Assembly: GCA_015068825.1 (NCBI GenBank)
Contig: SVJU01000006.1
Coordinates: 1-64,000 of the forward strand
Direction of reading: 5' to 3'
DNA from: Oscillospiraceae bacterium
GTDB taxonomy: Bacteria; Bacillota; Clostridia; UMGS1810
DNA: 64,000 bases
The position numbers were made by a program, and so were the translations under genes. Shown here piece after piece: positions 4,701 to 60,460 of this stretch (its first letter is position 1; each line of letters starts with the position of its first letter). The notes below the pieces were generated by a model that worked only from the letters and a program-made list of their open reading frames with translations, was not told where the DNA came from and made no database searches.

Positions 4701-5188
4701 CCTGCTTCATTCATTGCTTTTGCATAATTTGTTATATCTACTGTGTACTTTCCTGCCCCATTTATGTTTAGTGTTGCAATCGGCGTACCACCATACATGT
4801 AAGTTTTATCAACTTCAAAAGCATGTCTGTCGTTTCCAACAGCATTATACCAGTTAATAGTTGCTTCGTTCCAATTATGAAGGCTTGTTTCGCCGTTTGT
4901 ATCAACACCATAAACATTTATTTTTTGATTACCTTCACTTGTTACATTAAGCATAAGTTCTGCTTTATCTATTGTATTTACAGCATCGGAAACATCAATT
5001 TTTATGTATCCTTTTTTGTTTCCTGATAAAATAGAAGGTGTTTCGCTGCCATTAATGTAAAGGCTTGCACCACCGTTGAATATAGTTTCTGCATTTTTGC
5101 CGTTTTCTACATATGTTGCTGATGCTGTCAAATGTGCGATACGGTGACAACCCTTGTTCATCCAAGGTTTGCATTGCAAGGTTGACAT
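1778..5188 (-). CDS. DNRLRE / carbohydrate-binding-module surface protein, 5'-truncated
   Basis: An extracellular-type protein of about 1,110 recognisable residues. Two DNRLRE/CBM96-like beta domains (roughly 25-175 and 585-735) show the typical KAELMLNV and INVYGV strands with an NWNEATINW or NWNNSPSV tail. They alternate with jelly-roll domains of CBM4/9 type (roughly 180-350, 370-560, 740-905), each with a YIDN(L/D)VV strand. The C-terminus is beta-rich and ends in an Ig-like domain. The first ~25 codons from the ATG at 5188 are out-of-frame sequence of the neighbouring ACT gene, so no signal peptide remains. True homology begins near 5130 (SATYVENG). The original gene has lost its 5' end. 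It probably bound polysaccharide at the cell surface; no catalytic domain is visible. Confidence 0.7.
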   Translation of the reverse strand: MSTLQCKPWMNKGCHRIAHLTASATYVENGKNAETIFNGGASLYINGSETPSILSGNKKGYIKIDVSDAVNTIDKAELMLNVTSEGNQKINVYGVDTNGETSLHNWNEATINWYNAVGNDRHAFEVDKTYMYGGTPIATLNINGAGKYTVDITNYAKAMNEAGNDYATIVITADTKIINYTFDDMTDFVYETDFMTGGNQNKNNIYLSSDKNYPEGTSGKSLVQKTAKGSSRIKFYNAIIPGSKGENAFTQADLGRKFKVTGYVYAEDEDATFSVLLMGDIDTTNAQNSQQKHSVTAKANTWTSLGDDIIFEVTQKVIDGQYTLLSFERSATGADVVYIDNLVVWELEKADMEIESLDSTYKEVLGYSNSFDDSTIENGGTTTAEYSSTDVFRSGGSASGGSRAYSGDCDHTYGDTTKSGSMHITYSREYADMSSKGLIRFKLYNTVENDRSLTSADVGRKFRVKFWAKGSVDGIKMKVGHMSISGTSFVGSKIMTTTSQWAQYIYEFEITEKMATADATKQGTMLTFERSATNFVDAIAHKVGSVYIDDVEVYEIVEQQNTNPPCVVYTTGEEVLSVNAVADSFVQSGDSMFENAGYNAKIAVGNNAQVAQTLAGVKNTYLKFASDNFANANKAELKFTVKDNATQKVNIYGIANASWTQNELNWNNSPSVLDATLVSTVDIADKGEYTVDVLDFVTENTGGDITFILEALTKDGMKVVNFNFDTAINFVKDADYILSDANAIENISITNAEYYEGNGSLHIVDVKKSAENIKILNIFKNSNFTSDDIGRKYKISGMIKASTTGRTYANGIYTNYDLVESTNVRMGIASLSSDDITTGTGAEFTVLAGQWQPFSFDVTISETFVNAKGNSLLIDQINAPNGVFATSLYIDNLIVQETSEGFGTKVIIDNTENAPTLYTEIASEIEYADMSSSSILQKTPVSSGNFKEGDTIELRTTVIVPVEKVVSEVTFKNGEDEIYGKVYKDGYDYVLRMYDVGIGEYSITTEVVFEDGTSEVTSAKTFSITSGKSYEVVSTVYEGNITPSSTLTITKTVKNNTDTPKTAILVLAVYDKSDNLISSSYSKATVTLEIGKTNNVTATVTMPQTGEYTVKAFIWDSMQSAMPLVASHIISASDIS

Positions 5189-5747
5189 TCACCAAAAGCT
5201 CACGACTCACTTCTTGGGAAAGTCCCATTGTCTGCGATAAACCTAAAACATAGGTATTATAGAAAATACTGTTATCATAAACCTTTTCAGAACTATTATA
5301 ATCTATCACACGAACCTTGCAAAGCTTCTCGGCTTCTTTCAAAAATTCCGAAATTTTATTGAAATCATCAACATACAAACCCATTTTGAAATACTGATAC
5401 TCTGTTCCATTTTCCTGCGAACTGATGTAGGAGATGTTAAAGTTGAATTCGCTGATAAGTTCAAGTACATTTGTTACACTTCCCGGAACGTCTGCGAGAC
5501 AAAATTCTATCAGAACAACACTTGTCTTATTTGCACCCGTTTGCAGATAGCCGATTTTTTCAAGCTCGATATCTGCTTTCTTCAATTGTTCCTCCGTGCC
5601 TTCGCTATCTATAAACAAGGTATGTGAATCTACCGCTTTGTTATAACTTACACGAGTAATATTTATTCCAAGCTGCGAAAAGCATTTACTTGCTTTCAAA
5701 AACGCTCCGATATGATTAGGCATAGAGGTTACATAGGTCTTTTTCAC
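5052..5747 (-). pseudogene. ACT-domain protein, 3'-truncated (MBL domain missing)
   Basis: Two tandem ACT-like amino-acid-binding domains (residues ~1-70 and ~75-155), then a helical segment ending LAMQTLDEQGLSPYRTFDSIS. As I recall the family, full members continue into a metallo-beta-lactamase-fold domain after this point. Here the frame passes at about 5115-5129 into DNRLRE coding sequence in a wrong frame and stops at 5052 after some 20 foreign residues. The start is most likely GTG at 5747: GAGGTG at 5754-5759 sits six bases upstream. GTG at 5756 overlaps that ribosome site. It lies 33 bases after the XRE-cupin-acyl-CoA synthetase gene, under the same T-box. The ACT half may still fold, but the enzyme half is gone. 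Confidence 0.75.
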
Positions 5748-5780
5748 ATAAAACACCTCATTTATACGCTTTGTATAGAA

Positions 5781-8081
5781 TTACTTGCCGAGTTTCTCCA
5801 TATCATTCTTACGGATTTCAACTCGTCTTACCTTACCGCTGATTGTTTTAGGAAGCTCATCCACAAACTCAACGATTCTCGGATATTTGTAAGGAGCAGT
5901 ATGTGTTTTGACATATTCCTGAATTTCTTTTTTCAGTTCGTCGGTACCTTCGGTGCCTTTAACAAGCACGATGGTAGCTTTTACAATCTGACCGCGCACT
6001 TCATCAGGAACAGGTGTGATTGCACATTCAAGAACATAAGGAAGCTCCATGATAACGCTTTCGATTTCAAAAGGTCCGATACGGTAACCGGATGATTTTA
6101 TAACATCATCGATTCTGCCCACATACCAAAGGTATCCGTCTTCGTCCATCGTTGCCTGATCGCCGGTATGATAGTAACCGTCATGCCATACTTCGTTTGT
6201 TTTTTCTTCGTCAAGGTAATAACCGATAAAGAGACCGCAAGGGATATCATCTTTAACTCTGATACAGATTTCGCCTGTATCACCGGTTTTACATTCTTTT
6301 CCGTCAGGGTCAAGCACAACAACATCGTAAAGAGGACTTGGTCTGCCCATTGAACCAATTTTAGGTGTTGAGCCTACAAAGTTCGCGATAGAAAGTGTTG
6401 TTTCTGTCTGACCAAAGCCTTCCATAATGGTAAGACCTGTTGCCTTCTTGAACTGATTGAATACTTCGGGATTGAGTGCTTCGCCTGCAGTTGTAGCATA
6501 TTCAATAGAAGAAAGGTCATACTTTGACAAATCCTCTTTGATGAAGAAACGATACATTGTAGGCGGTGCACAGAAGGTTGTGATATGGTATTTAGCAAAC
6601 ATAGGTAAGATATCTTCCGAATGGAATCTGTCAAAGTCATAGGTAAATTGCGCCGCTTCGCAGAGCCATTGTCCGTATAGTTTACCCCAAAGAGCCTTAC
6701 CCCAACCTGTATCGGAGATTGTAAAGTGAAGTCCGTCAGGATTTACATTATGCCAATGCTTTGCAGTAGGATAATGACCGAGCGCATATTTGTATGAGTG
6801 TGTTGCGATTCTTGGATATCCTGTTGTACCTGATGTAAAGAGCATAAGCATTGGATCGTTACCGCAAGGTGTATTTTTTGTGCGGTCAAAATGTGTACTG
6901 AAGCGTTCCATTTCAACATTGAAATCGTGCCAACCTTCTTTTTCGCCGCCGACCAATATTTTAACCATATCTGGATAGTTTACTGCAGCTTTTTCTGCTT
7001 CGCAAGATACATCGCCATCTGCAGTACAAACAATTGCTTTAACCTTAGCAGCTTTGTATCTGTAATCAAAATCGTGTTCTACAAGCTGATTGGTGGCAGG
7101 GATTGCGATAGCACCAATCTTATGAAGTGCAAGCATACAGAACCAGAACTGATAATGGCGTTTTAATACGAGCATTACCGTATCTCCCTTTTTGATGCCG
7201 AGTGATTCAAAGTAGTTTGCGGTCTTTGCAGAATACTTTTTCATATCGCTGAAAGTAAATTTTCTGTCAGTCTTATCATTTGCAACCCACATCATAGCCA
7301 ATTTTTCAGGATTTTTTTCTGCGATAGCATCCACACAGTCAAATGCAAAGTTGAATGAATCTGCGTTCTTAAATTTGATGCCACTAAATACACCTTTTTC
7401 GTCATAGGATGATTCAATAAATTTATCTGCAACAGTTTCAGTTTTTTTCTTTTTGGCAGCGAAGGTGGCGGCAATCATCGGTGCTTCGGGGTATTCTTCA
7501 CTAACGCTTCCGTCCTGTGGATTTAATACAACTGCATGGAATTCGCATCCACCTTCGCTTGCTGCAACCATGCCGTGAGGAATAAGGCTGTTATAGAAAA
7601 TAGAGTCTCCTTCGTGGAGCACATCTACATGATTTCCAACCTGAACTTTGAGTGAACCTTTAACGATAACATCAAATTCCTGACCATTGTGAGAGTTTAA
7701 CTGCATCGGAGCATTTTGTTCCTCTTCAAGGTATGGGAATTTAACGAGGAAGGGTTCAGCAAGCTTTTCCCTGAATTTAGGTGCAAGGTTATTATATTCT
7801 ACACCATGCTTCTTTACAATTTTAAGGCCTTCGCCTTTTCTTGTGATAGCGAAAGAGGTAAGGGTTGTGCTTGTTCCTTCAAGCAAATCAACAACTTCAA
7901 CACCGCAAGCTTTTGCACACTTGTAGATAAATGTGAAGCTGAAATCTGTTTCGCCTTTTTCCAACACCTTGTAATCATCAAGCGATACACCCGTAAGCTT
8001 TGCAAGCTTCTCCTGTGTAAATCCTTTTGCTTCGCGCAGGTCTTTGATTCTTCCTGCGACTTCTTTCAAACTGTAATCCAT
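5781..8081 (-). CDS. XRE-cupin-acyl-CoA synthetase fusion (AMP-forming)
   Basis: A three-part protein of 766 residues. Residues ~5-65 are an XRE helix-turn-helix (EKLAKLTGVSLDDYKVLEKGE). Residues ~95-185 are a cupin (a double-stranded beta-helix with NSHNGQEFDVIVKG and PHGMVAA strands). Residues ~215-760 are an ANL adenylating domain with the P-loop LFTSGTTGYPR, the YHTGDQATMDEDGY aspartate and hinge motif GRIDDVIKSSGYRIGP, and the C-terminal lysine in KTISGKVRR. The domain resembles medium-chain/aryl acyl-CoA ligases. The start is ATG 8081 after AAGGAG; an upstream in-frame start at 8156 would lie inside the T-box terminator. The reaction is carboxylate + CoA + ATP to acyl-CoA; the substrate is unknown. 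T-box control suggests an amino-acid-linked acid (inference). Confidence 0.85.
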   Translation of the reverse strand: MDYSLKEVAGRIKDLREAKGFTQEKLAKLTGVSLDDYKVLEKGETDFSFTFIYKCAKACGVEVVDLLEGTSTTLTSFAITRKGEGLKIVKKHGVEYNNLAPKFREKLAEPFLVKFPYLEEEQNAPMQLNSHNGQEFDVIVKGSLKVQVGNHVDVLHEGDSIFYNSLIPHGMVAASEGGCEFHAVVLNPQDGSVSEEYPEAPMIAATFAAKKKKTETVADKFIESSYDEKGVFSGIKFKNADSFNFAFDCVDAIAEKNPEKLAMMWVANDKTDRKFTFSDMKKYSAKTANYFESLGIKKGDTVMLVLKRHYQFWFCMLALHKIGAIAIPATNQLVEHDFDYRYKAAKVKAIVCTADGDVSCEAEKAAVNYPDMVKILVGGEKEGWHDFNVEMERFSTHFDRTKNTPCGNDPMLMLFTSGTTGYPRIATHSYKYALGHYPTAKHWHNVNPDGLHFTISDTGWGKALWGKLYGQWLCEAAQFTYDFDRFHSEDILPMFAKYHITTFCAPPTMYRFFIKEDLSKYDLSSIEYATTAGEALNPEVFNQFKKATGLTIMEGFGQTETTLSIANFVGSTPKIGSMGRPSPLYDVVVLDPDGKECKTGDTGEICIRVKDDIPCGLFIGYYLDEEKTNEVWHDGYYHTGDQATMDEDGYLWYVGRIDDVIKSSGYRIGPFEIESVIMELPYVLECAITPVPDEVRGQIVKATIVLVKGTEGTDELKKEIQEYVKTHTAPYKYPRIVEFVDELPKTISGKVRRVEIRKNDMEKLGK

Positions 8082-8139
8082 TGTTTTGTCTCCTTTCTGT
8101 TTTGACAAATTTGATATTTGGTTACAAATCTGAATAAAA

Positions 8140-8430
8140 CAAAAAACTCGCCTCAAAGATAACTTTGAGACGAGTTATAATAACCCGCGGTACCACTCAA
8201 ATTACGGAAAATTTTAAAATTCCCGTCACTTACCGAGCTCTAACAAGCCCTTTGCCTTTACGCAGCATTACGGAAGGAGTCTACTAACATTTTGTTTTCG
8301 GTCCTTCGACTCAGAGGTGATAAGTCATTGGAAAGTCTCACCATTGCCTTGCACCAACCGGCAACTCTCTGAAAGGCTCCACAATCCGACCGTCCTCGTC
8401 ATAGTCGTTTTTTGTGATATTCAAATTTTA
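8140..8430 (-). ncRNA. T-box leader upstream of the XRE-cupin-acyl-CoA synthetase operon
   Basis: On the minus strand the leader has the hallmarks of a T-box. A long Stem I has the distal GGTTGGTGCAAGG element, the antiterminator has the T-box core GAGTGGTACCGCGG (8187-8200), and a strong terminator follows (CTCGTCTCAAAG pairing with CTTTGAGGCGAG, then a T-run, 8140-8177). The base after UGG is U, matching a tRNA with discriminator A. Hand folding of Stem I (CGACU with AGUCG, AGG with CCU, AUUG with CAAU) leaves UAUCA on the 3' side of the specifier loop. AUC followed by A (isoleucine) is the most natural reading, but UAU (tyrosine) is not excluded. Confidence 0.9.
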
Positions 8431-16619: not shown

Positions 16620-16900
16620 GCGGTCGTACAGCCGGGGCGGTAGCGGTGCCCTGTACTTGCAATCCGCTATAGCAAGGGTTATGTCTTTTACGAGGGTTAT
16701 CTTTGTACGGTTTTGCGCTCTGTGATGGGTGTTGATGGCAAGGTCTTACGCAATACAAGGTTGTGAACCAGGTCAGGTGGGGAACCAAGCAGCCTTAAGC
16801 AATTTTTTTGTATGTGCCGTAAGGAAACCTTTCCTGAGCTTTATCATTTTGTTGCACGTGGAATAGATAATTCGACTTTAAGGCGTACGGCCTTTTATTA
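16620..16900 (+). ncRNA. ffs: Signal recognition particle RNA, large Bacillus type
   Basis: The 4.5S/6S-like RNA scaffold of the signal recognition particle. The 5' Alu-type segment GGTAGCGGTGCCCTGTAC and AATCCGCTATAGC match the Gram-positive large SRP RNA. The S-domain, which binds Ffh, is GAACCAGGTCAGG with tetraloop region GGGGAACC and AAGCAGCCTTAAGC (16767-16800). The outer helix closes perfectly: GGTCGTAC (16622-16629) pairs with GTACGGCC (about 16885-16892). It is followed by a T-rich stretch. It lies directly upstream of dnaX, a common arrangement in Firmicutes. Confidence 0.9.
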
Positions 16901-57621: not shown

Positions 57622-58353
57622 ATGCAAGATAGCGAAAACACAAAATTATTTACCGAATATTATAACACAAAAGATGCTGCTTTAAGAGAAGAAATCATAA
57701 ATAAATATATGTATCTTGCAAAAATTATCACAAAAAAATATCTTAACAAAGGCGTTGAATATGACGACCTTTTTCAGGTTGCGTGCGTAGGCTTAATAAA
57801 TGCTGCCGACAGGTTTAATCCTAATATGGGTGTTGAATTTGCAACCTTTGCAACCCCTACAATACTTGGCGAAATAAAAAGATATTTTCGTGACAAAGGC
57901 TCGATTATAAAGCTTCCGAGAAAATTTTACGAAATTTTTCAGCTTGCAAACAGAATACGATTAAAAAGAATGCAGTATGACGGGTATATCCCCACAATTG
58001 AAGAAATCACCGACGCATTAAATCTTGAGAAAAAAGACCTTGACAGCTATATGTCTTATGAAAATTTTATAAATATTATATCGCTTGATTCGCCTGTTTA
58101 TACCGATGATACACCGCTTATAAACCACGTTGTAGGCTACGAAGATGACGCATTTTTAGTAGTTGAAAACCGTGATTTTATAAAATTTGCCCTAAAACAC
58201 TTGACAAACGAAGAAAAACGATTTATAATACATAGATATTACAGAGGTATGACGCAAAAACAGATTTCTATAAAGTGGAATGTTTCGCAAATGTATATAT
58301 CCCGTCTTGAGCGAAAAACATTGGGTAAGCTTAAAAATCTGTATTTTAAATAA
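57622..58353 (+). CDS. SigB/SigF-type RNA polymerase sigma factor
   Basis: A 243-residue sigma factor with regions 2, 3 and 4, the length and layout of the SigB/F/G group. Region 2 has KGVEYDDLFQVACVGLINAADRFNPNMGVEFATFATPTILGEIKRYFRDKG (~41-91), region 3 lies at ~100-160 (PTIEEITDALNLEKKDLDSYM), and region 4 at ~190-240 has the helix-turn-helix MTQKQISIKWNVSQMYISRLERKTL. No anti-sigma or anti-anti-sigma gene (RsbW/V, SpoIIAA/AB) is adjacent, so its control is not evident. AAAGGAGG precedes ATG 57622, 16 bases after the transporter. The aromatic leader follows, and transcription may read into it. Confidence 0.88.
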   Translation: MQDSENTKLFTEYYNTKDAALREEIINKYMYLAKIITKKYLNKGVEYDDLFQVACVGLINAADRFNPNMGVEFATFATPTILGEIKRYFRDKGSIIKLPRKFYEIFQLANRIRLKRMQYDGYIPTIEEITDALNLEKKDLDSYMSYENFINIISLDSPVYTDDTPLINHVVGYEDDAFLVVENRDFIKFALKHLTNEEKRFIIHRYYRGMTQKQISIKWNVSQMYISRLERKTLGKLKNLYFK

Positions 58354-58376
58354 TGTCATATAAAGAGGTTATTATT

Positions 58377-58460
58377 ATGAAAAAGTTGTTCGCAGTAAAA
58401 GAATATTTTTACTTTTTCTACTTTGGATTTTATTTTAGTCCAAGGTTACTTTTGCTGTGA
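58377..58460 (+). CDS. Aromatic leader peptide (27 residues, Phe/Tyr-rich)
   Basis: ATG 58377 follows an AGAGG ribosome site at 58363-58367 and opens a 27-codon frame ending at TGA 58458-58460. The peptide begins MKKLFAVKE. Residues 10-20 (YFYFFYFGFYF) are ten aromatic residues and one Gly; seven Phe and four Tyr in all, with no Trp. The last codons (24-27, Leu-rich) are the antiterminator strand. Such peptides (for example pheL in enteric bacteria) act only as sensors of charged tRNA, and the peptide itself has no role. The reading frame would respond to lack of Phe or Tyr. Confidence 0.85.
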   Translation: MKKLFAVKEYFYFFYFGFYFSPRLLLL

Positions 58461-58545
58461 AAATTATCGTAAATAAAGCCAAAATTAATACACGACTTTT
58501 ACCGATAAGATTTACTGCAAAAGTAAAGCTTATCGGTTTTTTAAT
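58421..58545 (+). promoter_or_regulatory. Ribosome-mediated attenuator of aroF-tyrA
   Basis: Three mutually exclusive pieces are visible. Hairpin 1 (58421-58427 with 58439-58445) covers the aromatic codons. Segment 2 (TTACTTTTGC, 58446-58455, over codons 24-27) is perfectly complementary over ten bases to segment 3 (GCAAAAGTAA, 58517-58526). The terminator (58501-58509 with 58529-58537, inner stem TTTAC/GTAAA, then six T) needs segment 3 free. A ribosome reaching the stop codon covers segment 2, so the terminator forms. One stalled at Phe or Tyr codons leaves segment 2 free to form the antiterminator, and aroF is transcribed. Confidence 0.8.
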
Positions 58546-58588
58546 TTTAAAAAAATAAATTTTCATAAAAAGGACAAGGTGAAGAAAA

Positions 58589-59602
58589 ATGATTATTATG
58601 TTAAAACAAAACCCCGACAAACAGGAAGTAGAAAAGCTTACTTCCATGCTTGAAAAAGAAAATGTTACCATAAACTATGTTCATGGTAAATTTAACGATG
58701 TAATAGGTCTTGTAGGCGATACATCACATCTTGACGAAAACACAATTTTAGCATCTTCAGATATTGTTGAAACCGTTACAAGAGTATCAGAGCCATACAA
58801 AGCGGTTAACAGAAAATTCCATCCTGACGACACATGCATTGATGTTAACGGTGCAAAAATAGGCGGTCAGCATTTTGGTGTTATTGCAGGTCCGTGCTCT
58901 GTTGAATCTGAAGAACAAATGATTCAGGTTGCAAAAGCTGTTAAAGACAGCGGCGCAAAATTCCTTCGTGGCGGTGCATTCAAACCAAGAACATCTCCTT
59001 ACGCTTTCCAGGGACTTCATGGCGAAGGTATAAGACTTCTTCTTGAAGCTAAAAAAGAAACAGGTCTTCCTATTGTAACCGAAATTATGTCTATTGCTCA
59101 TCTTGATTTATTCAATGATGTTGATGTTATTCAGGTAGGCGCAAGAAATATGCAGAACTTTGACCTTTTAAAAGAGCTTGGACATTCAAACAAACCTATT
59201 CTTTTAAAAAGAGGTTTATCAAGCACAATGGAAGAGCTTCTTATGAGTGCTGAATACATTTTAGCAGGCGGAAACAAAAAAGTTATCCTTTGCGAAAGAG
59301 GTATAAGAACATTTGAAAAAGCTACAAGAAATACCCTTGATTTATCTGCTATTCCGCTTCTTAAAAGCAAAACACATCTTCCTATTATTGTTGACCCAAG
59401 CCACGCAGCAGGTATTGCGGCACTTGTTGAACCGCTATCAAAAGCAGCAGTTGCAGTTGGCGCAGACGGTCTTATGATTGAAGTTCATAACAATCCTAAA
59501 ATGGCTCGTTGCGACGGTGACCAGTCACTTACTCCATTGCAATTTGACTCTGTTATGCAAAAAGTTAAATTCCTTGCATCAGTAGAAAACAAAATAATGT
59601 AA
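58589..59602 (+). CDS. aroF: 3-deoxy-7-phosphoheptulonate (DAHP) synthase, type I-beta
   Basis: Condenses phosphoenolpyruvate and erythrose 4-phosphate in the first step of aromatic synthesis. The 337-residue protein has an N-terminal ferredoxin-like regulatory domain (~1-70: KQEVEKLTSMLEKENVTINYVHG). The barrel has GVIAGPCSVES (~95), GAKFLRGGAFKPRTSPYAFQGLHGEG (~128-153), GLPIVTEIMS, QVGARNMQNFDLLKELG, GNKKVILCERGIRTFE and LPIIVDPSHAAGIAALVEPL (~265-285), the active-site strands of the KDOPS-like I-beta group. The N-terminal domain usually binds an allosteric amino acid (Tyr or Phe). The start is ATG 58589. It is under the attenuator and followed after 21 bases by tyrA. Confidence 0.95.
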   Translation: MIIMLKQNPDKQEVEKLTSMLEKENVTINYVHGKFNDVIGLVGDTSHLDENTILASSDIVETVTRVSEPYKAVNRKFHPDDTCIDVNGAKIGGQHFGVIAGPCSVESEEQMIQVAKAVKDSGAKFLRGGAFKPRTSPYAFQGLHGEGIRLLLEAKKETGLPIVTEIMSIAHLDLFNDVDVIQVGARNMQNFDLLKELGHSNKPILLKRGLSSTMEELLMSAEYILAGGNKKVILCERGIRTFEKATRNTLDLSAIPLLKSKTHLPIIVDPSHAAGIAALVEPLSKAAVAVGADGLMIEVHNNPKMARCDGDQSLTPLQFDSVMQKVKFLASVENKIM

Positions 59603-59623: not shown

Positions 59624-60460
59624 ATGGATATTGGGTTTGTGGGTATTGGTCTTATTGGCGGCTCACTTTTAAAGGCAATAAAAAAATATACAAATAATAA
59701 TTGTTTTTTTCTTGATAAAAATATAGATGCAATAAAAAAAGCAAAAGTTTTAGGTCTTGGTGAAGAGCTTAATGATGAAAGTATGCTTTCAAAATGTGAT
59801 ATTGTTTTTGTAAGCCTTCATCCTCAAAAAACTATTGATTTTATAAACAGCAACACAAAAAACTTTAAAAAAGGTGCAATTGTGTGCGATGTGTGCGGCA
59901 TAAAAAAAGAAATAGCAAATCAAATTCAGGCTAATCTTATTAAAGAAAATGTGCATTACATCGGTACGCATCCTATGGCAGGAAGAGAATTTTCGGGATT
60001 CGATTATTCAACCGAAAAGCTTTTTGAAAACGCATATTTTATTATTACAAAAAACGAAAACACCAATGACGATGCACTCGAAAAAATACAAACACTTGCC
60101 GAAAGCTTAAGATTTAAAAAATGCGTTATTTCAACCGAGGATGAACACGATAAAATTATCGCATTTACCTCACAATTAGCGCATATTGTGTCAAGTGCAT
60201 ATATAAAAAGCCCTTCCGCATTAATGGAAAAAGGCTTTAGCGCAGGCAGTTTTCAGGATATGACAAGAGTTGCATATCTTAACGAAGATATGTGGACCGA
60301 GCTTTTTATGATGAACAAACAAAACCTTGTTTATGAAATCGAAACTATTGTAAATCATCTTAACGAATATAAAAACGCCCTTATATCAGGCGATGACAAA
60401 AACCTTCATACACTTTTAAAAGAAGGCAGAGAATTAAAAGAAGCAGTTACAAAAATGTAA
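59624..60460 (+). CDS. tyrA: Prephenate dehydrogenase
   Basis: Converts prephenate to 4-hydroxyphenylpyruvate with NAD(P), the branch to tyrosine. The 278-residue protein has the Rossmann motif GFVGIGLIGGSLLKAI (~4-19) and catalytic/substrate features THPMAGREFSGFDYSTEKLFENAYF (~114-138), and a helical dimerisation domain with HIVSSAYIKSP and FSAGSFQDMTRVA. No C-terminal ACT domain is present, so feedback is probably exerted on transcription or on AroF. It lies in the aroF operon. The stop codon (60458-60460) falls inside the stem of the following terminator. Confidence 0.93.
   Translation: MDIGFVGIGLIGGSLLKAIKKYTNNNCFFLDKNIDAIKKAKVLGLGEELNDESMLSKCDIVFVSLHPQKTIDFINSNTKNFKKGAIVCDVCGIKKEIANQIQANLIKENVHYIGTHPMAGREFSGFDYSTEKLFENAYFIITKNENTNDDALEKIQTLAESLRFKKCVISTEDEHDKIIAFTSQLAHIVSSAYIKSPSALMEKGFSAGSFQDMTRVAYLNEDMWTELFMMNKQNLVYEIETIVNHLNEYKNALISGDDKNLHTLLKEGRELKEAVTKM

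Follow-up and report, generated by a model that had tools for sequence, protein, structure and literature searches.

The aroF-tyrA operon of an Oscillospiraceae bacterium is preceded by a leader that, judging from its sequence and from modelled RNA folding, very probably acts as a ribosome-mediated transcription attenuator sensing charged tRNA-Phe and tRNA-Tyr. We analysed a 64,000-nt stretch of contig SVJU01000006.1 (assembly GCA_015068825.1), referred to here as the window, and all coordinates are positions in it. The component parts of the leader, their mutually exclusive pairing, their geometry and their conservation are shown below.

Anatomy of the locus and its leader RNA

The genes and signals of the locus are as follows.

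57622 to 58353, + strand: SigB/SigF/SigG-type sigma factor gene, 5' of the leader (PF04542, PF04545; best match TIGR02980, under its cut-off)
58201 to 58229, + strand: predicted sigma-70 promoter, TTGACA-N17-TATAAT, 12/12 consensus
58366 to 58371, + strand: leader ribosome-binding site, AGAGG within AAAGAGG, just 5' of the ATG at 58377 (from the sequence)
58377 to 58460, + strand: leader peptide ORF of 27 codons, MKKLFAVKEYFYFFYFGFYFSPRLLLL, with stop TGA at 58458-58460 (from the sequence; sister peptide given below)
58404 to 58436, + strand: regulatory codons 10-20, YFYFFYFGFYF, 6 Phe and 4 Tyr in 11 (from the sequence)
58589 to 59602, + strand: aroF, type I DAHP synthase with a ferredoxin-like domain (PF00793, PF18152, TIGR01361)
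59624 to 60460, + strand: tyrA, prephenate dehydrogenase (PF02153, PF20463)

tyrA is the last gene of the operon, the next gene lying on the opposite strand, and a single DAHP synthase of the aroF type was found in this 96% complete genome. The predicted promoter is embedded in the 3' end of the sigma-factor coding sequence and would place the transcript start at about 58236-58237. In a sister locus (L082, whose aroF is 78% identical to that of the window), both promoter hexamers and the distance between them are the same at the corresponding position, with the adjacent bases diverged. A promoter-like site of 9/12 or better, counted by consensus matches only and without a chance control, was also present at 97 of 116 leaders of relatives, where it typically ended 33 nt 5' of the leader start.

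Within the 64-kb window, on both strands, the leader at 58377-58460 was the sole short ORF with a Shine-Dalgarno-like site that reached at least 7 Phe or Tyr residues in 12. The corresponding peptide of the sister genome is MKKLFAAVEYYFFFYFGYYFYPRLLLL. Phe and Tyr are exchanged between the two leaders at codons 11, 12 and 18, so that every position is still aromatic, and codons 22-28, where the antiterminator strand begins, do not differ at any base.

The RNA elements of the leader are listed next.

58389 to 58401, + strand: segment 1, the 5' strand of the protector, pairing with 58449-58461 over 13 bp (whole-leader minimum-energy fold)
58420 to 58446, + strand: pause-type hairpin of 10 bp over the last aromatic codons (fold; pair changes relative to L082)
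58447 to 58473, + strand: segment 2, the 5' strand of the antiterminator, comprising the final leader codons, the stop and 13 nt more (pairs with 58498-58525)
58498 to 58525, + strand: segment 3, the 3' strand of the antiterminator, overlapping the 5' arm, loop and inner 3' arm of the terminator (pairs with segment 2)
58501 to 58543, + strand: intrinsic terminator, stem 58501-58516/58522-58537 followed by a U-run (fold)

Segment 1 is built from the codons just 5' of the aromatic run and, in the whole-leader fold, sequesters segment 2. The pause-type hairpin differs from that of L082 by one fully compensatory pair change, T-A to A-T, and by one wobble change, T-G to T-A. The antiterminator comprises 24 bp in four helices (58447-58455/58517-58525, 58457-58461/58511-58515, 58464-58469/58503-58508 and 58470-58473/58498-58501), with an energy of -21.2 kcal/mol and a z-score of -6.7 that none of 200 shuffles equalled. 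The duplex energy of its 26-nt 5' strand, -23.5, was matched by none of 5000 shuffles and by none of the 21,325 26-mers of the window. The terminator (58501-58537 plus the U-run) has a folding energy of -17.7 kcal/mol (z -6.3), and its hairpin, which is followed by six U residues, ends ~51 nt 5' of the aroF start.

The original prediction had been correct in all its coordinates, and reading the ORF confirmed the ribosome site and the 10 aromatic residues within 11 that it had described. It had also proposed that 58446-58455 (TTACTTTTGC) is perfectly complementary to 58517-58526 (GCAAAAGTAA); the match is exact, but this 10-base pairing understated the structure, of which it is merely the outer part. 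The proposal of an intrinsic terminator followed directly by aromatic genes is borne out by the terminator fold and by the Pfam and TIGR profile matches of aroF and tyrA. The view that all elements of attenuation lie here in the right order likewise found support, and it extends to the protector helix and pause-type hairpin, which had been overlooked; with these, the whole trp-type four-segment layout is present in the leader.

Ribosome position and the predicted switch

From these parts we infer promoter use, ribosome stalling, readthrough and a response to Phe and Tyr, in the following sequence. Transcription would begin at ~58237, and a ribosome would start the leader peptide. A shortage of Phe- or Tyr-tRNA is expected to halt the ribosome within codons 10-20, where it would break up segment 1 (58389-58401); segment 2 (58447-58473) could then capture segment 3 (58498-58525) once it is made, ahead of the outer 3' arm of the terminator (58529-58537). 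The 2:3 pairing would block the terminator, and aroF-tyrA would be transcribed. When both tRNAs are charged, the ribosome would reach the stop codon (58458-58460) with its footprint over segment 2; segment 3 would then be free for segment 4, and transcription would stop at ~58543. Without translation the switch should be off, because the minimum-energy state of the finished, untranslated leader combines the 1:2 and 3:4 pairings. While the terminator 3' arm is still unmade, the 2:3 form is favoured in the untranslated leader.

We modelled the folding of the window leader at successive ribosome positions, assuming a standard footprint size. A ribosome at the stop codon masked almost the whole of segment 2, and the terminator formed with a probability of at least 0.99 when codons 22-28 were occupied. 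The antiterminator was favoured with the ribosome at codons 8-11 (probability 0.94) and at codon 20 (0.96), and at codons 12-19 the equilibrium favoured the finished terminator (0.67-0.95). Since the terminator wins at equilibrium over codons 12-19, the switch must be kinetic. In keeping with this, with the ribosome at codon 14 the modelled antiterminator probability was 1.0 until position 58535 was made. The switch of trp attenuation is likewise believed to be kinetic.

Among 118 relatives, full switching at equilibrium was predicted in just 25, most of the leaders keeping the terminator even when the ribosome was stalled. An equilibrium two-state model thus proved too blunt, strong terminators mostly winning, and was replaced by one that considers the RNA before the 3' arm is made. 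By this second model, the antiterminator formed under a stalled ribosome in 113 of the 118; this is a weak test taken singly, as a fraction of 0.56 of shuffled tails also reached 0.7 pairing to the terminator arm at that stage.

Leaders of related aroF loci

In a first set of loci, a leader with a Shine-Dalgarno site and at least 6 Phe or Tyr residues in 12 was present in 64% of 107 aroF upstream regions; for 636 other genes of these loci the figure was 0.8%, and none of 535 shuffles had one. A class survey brought the set to 205 aroF upstream regions. Phe/Tyr-rich leader ORFs with a Shine-Dalgarno site occurred in 129 of these 205, and were accompanied by a terminator in 120; the other 76 regions were without a leader by these criteria. 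All 129 leaders contained both Phe and Tyr, though the search had not demanded both. By genome, the class survey showed the leader in 74 of 117, distributed over 31 of the 44 families sampled.

Leader tails paired more strongly with their own terminators (mean -17.0 kcal/mol) than with those of other loci (-11.4; Wilcoxon p 9e-20), and shuffled tails averaged -11.1 (p 5e-21), these p-values overstating independence since the sequences compared are related. When the 5' and 3' strands were anchored by sequence alone, the observed covariation was reached by 8 of 20,000 permutations. The comparison of relatives that had been proposed as a check on the original prediction thus found both the aromatic codons and the complementarity of tail and terminator to be kept (129/205; p ~1e-19). 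Counted from where the stop codon ends, the antiterminator 5' strand of relatives spanned -22 to -3 (medians), a stretch that a ribosome at the stop would cover. The pairing partners themselves have turned over: Clostridium-type leaders use AATGAGT/ACTCATT, and other leaders GATTTGTGCTGC/GCCGCACGAATT, GGTTTGGCTG/CAGCCGAACC or GGTAAAGCCCG/CGGGCTTTGC.

These comparisons bear on the simplest alternative, namely that a chance aromatic-rich ORF happens to lie beside the ordinary terminator of the sigma-factor gene, with aroF unregulated. Phe/Tyr-rich frames do arise in AT-rich DNA, and terminator-like hairpins were present at 45 of the 76 leaderless aroF upstream regions as well. However, Phe/Tyr ORFs with a Shine-Dalgarno site are ~80 times commoner at aroF than at other genes, the antiterminator pairing exceeds that of 5000 shuffles and tracks its own partner across loci, and the sister exchanges Phe for Tyr with the run still aromatic and codons 22-28 identical. 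The comparative data largely refute this alternative, which we regard as very improbable.

It could also be that the leader controls mainly the translation of aroF, not transcription termination. No terminator was detected for 9 of the 129 leaders, and some relatives may differ in this respect, but the hairpin in the window is followed by its six U residues well ahead of the aroF start, and the aroF ribosome site lies outside the switching helices; for this leader, control of that kind would be very surprising.

Other lineages conserve a hairpin similar to the pause-type hairpin, its loop holding the aromatic codons. In alignments of these, 92.6% of cells were paired, compared with 85.6% in shuffles and 25-52% when the structure was slid, and the covariation score was reached by 2 of 500 shuffles; pairs with two-sided changes were no more numerous than in shuffles. 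The dense windows of the leaders averaged 0.33 Phe and 0.31 Tyr. A nascent peptide of TnaC-like type, arresting the ribosome in response to free Phe, free Tyr or another ligand through its specific sequence and not through tRNA charging, would produce a similar arrangement of ORF, antiterminator and terminator. Yet the peptide is conserved in its Phe/Tyr richness only, Phe and Tyr interchange between sisters, and leaders of other lineages have mainly composition in common, observations that make such an arrest highly unlikely.

Throughout the class Clostridia, DAHP synthase is, we think, probably controlled for the most part by leader peptides whose Phe and Tyr codons sense tRNA charging. Such an attenuator would be old, its pairing partners replaced many times and its logic fixed (codons for both Phe and Tyr, and an antiterminator strand under the stop-codon ribosome), and it would have been carried with aroF to other phyla. 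If this is true, leader peptides and not T-boxes are the main sensor at the entry to aromatic synthesis in Clostridia. The leader offers a testable control point for that entry, and would correct the view that in Firmicutes aromatic amino acids are monitored almost exclusively through T-boxes or TRAP. As the more than 100 natural variants share a common logic and differ in sequence, the family is also a good data set on base-pair turnover in attenuators, in which function can be studied as it is kept while the pairs change.

Phe/Tyr-rich leader ORFs also stood before aroF in records assigned to Lentisphaerae, Kiritimatiellae, Spirochaetaceae/Treponema and Pelosinus (L013, L025, L055, L072, L027, L056, L037). 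These suggest transfer of aroF together with its leader, the records being metagenome bins that may be mis-binned. In genomes with two DAHP synthase copies (G007, G081, G147, G170), the leader can sit on one copy only. The Phe share of the leader showed no significant relation to whether pheA or tyrA lies downstream (p 0.26).

Aromatic pathway content and known systems

In the genome of the window, PheA is located elsewhere, in a separate aroB-aroA-aroC-pheA-aroE cluster, and we found no leader ahead of aroB or thrC there. This genome, at 96% completeness, gave no match either for the chorismate-binding family (TrpE/PabB/MenF) or for TrpA. With PheA present and neither of these detected, the aroF of the window would seem mainly to supply Phe and Tyr, which agrees with a leader containing codons for these two amino acids and none for Trp. 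This relation is not a general one: the sister genome G001 has TrpA, yet its leader is without a Trp codon, and the survey showed no clear link between Trp codons and TrpA (Trp in 12 of 29 leaders from TrpA-positive and 7 of 27 from TrpA-negative genomes). Most sampled members of the family to which the genome of the window belongs were without a DAHP synthase of the aroF type, and aromatic prototrophy looks patchy in that family.

The pheA/pheST and trp leaders of E. coli are classical four-segment ribosome-mediated attenuators. The window leader resembles them in having a Shine-Dalgarno site and a short ORF with end-product codons, in the protector 1:2, antiterminator 2:3 and terminator 3:4 pairings, and in preceding structural genes of the same pathway. 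It differs from them in that its sequence is unrelated, it carries codons for both Phe and Tyr, and it lies on a DAHP synthase gene in Clostridia.

Among reported candidates, the uORFC-13-1 motif places a terminator and a uORF containing Phe codons 5' of aroF (DAHP synthase) and is represented by 24 sequences from Acholeplasma and environmental sources only, with no Clostridia named (PMC8632094); compared by description only, it resembles the window leader in these elements. The accessible part of PMC6429828 (Fig. 6b) presents two Phe and Tyr uORF candidates at shikimate genes in a set of five genomes, Clostridium novyi among them; as far as that part goes, these encode both Phe and Tyr, as does the window leader, and may overlap with the Clostridia family. 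For Thermoanaerobacter, Table 7 of PMC1173090 lists a predicted attenuator ahead of another aromatic operon, pheA-aroA-tyrA-aroF; its type is not stated, and the accessible text describes no leader peptide. Leader-peptide attenuation in place of T-boxes is likewise found in Firmicutes in the His leaders (PMC9413887), including hisS/hisZ in bacilli (PMC2965389), and in the ilv leader of Staphylococcus aureus (PMC5794164), which concern other amino acids and operons and cover narrower ranges of genomes than the Phe/Tyr leader.

The suggestion that a Phe and Tyr attenuator on aroF-tyrA might be undescribed in such a genome therefore stands in part. Leader-peptide attenuators in Firmicutes (his, ilv) and, in the portions of the sources available, uORFs at shikimate genes and aroF had already been reported (PMC6429828, PMC8632094), and the mechanism itself is well known, whereas the breadth in Clostridia and the full anatomy appear to be undescribed. 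The literature searched, which included few subscription journals, yielded no description of a Phe/Tyr attenuator acting on DAHP synthase throughout the Clostridia.

Between positions 58150 and 58650, no Rfam leader family matched at its gathering threshold, and chance matches alone appeared at E up to 5; as the region is without an Rfam match, such leaders are likely to be unannotated in many genomes. The same search bears on control of aroF-tyrA by a T-box riboswitch or by TRAP, the usual routes for aromatic genes in Firmicutes, and the window does contain a genuine T-box elsewhere (8163-8411, - strand). But no T-box (RF00230) was detected in 58150-58650 at E up to 5, the leader is without a GGTGG antiterminator core, and its 309 nt contain 4 scattered (G/U)AG triplets that form no array; nor did a T-box substitute for the leader at any of 20 leaderless aroF loci. 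We therefore give this explanation practically no weight, and retain attenuation by the Phe/Tyr leader peptide. The T-box elsewhere in the window and the genes behind it are as follows.

8163 to 8411, - strand: T-box leader, 94.2 bits (gathering 93; Rfam)
5781 to 8156, - strand: gene for an HTH + AMP-ligase protein (acyl-CoA synthetase type) behind the T-box, named by eye, not by profile
5052 to 5756, - strand: gene for an ACT-domain-like protein, next after the HTH + AMP-ligase gene, named by eye, not by profile

In the alignment, the specifier region of this T-box contains UUAUCACC, in which the specifier is possibly AUC (Ile), and a 12/12 sigma-70 site lies just 5' of it, at ~8465 on the - strand. 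A large bacterial signal recognition particle RNA was also recognized in the window, at 16624-16890 on the + strand (160.5 bits).
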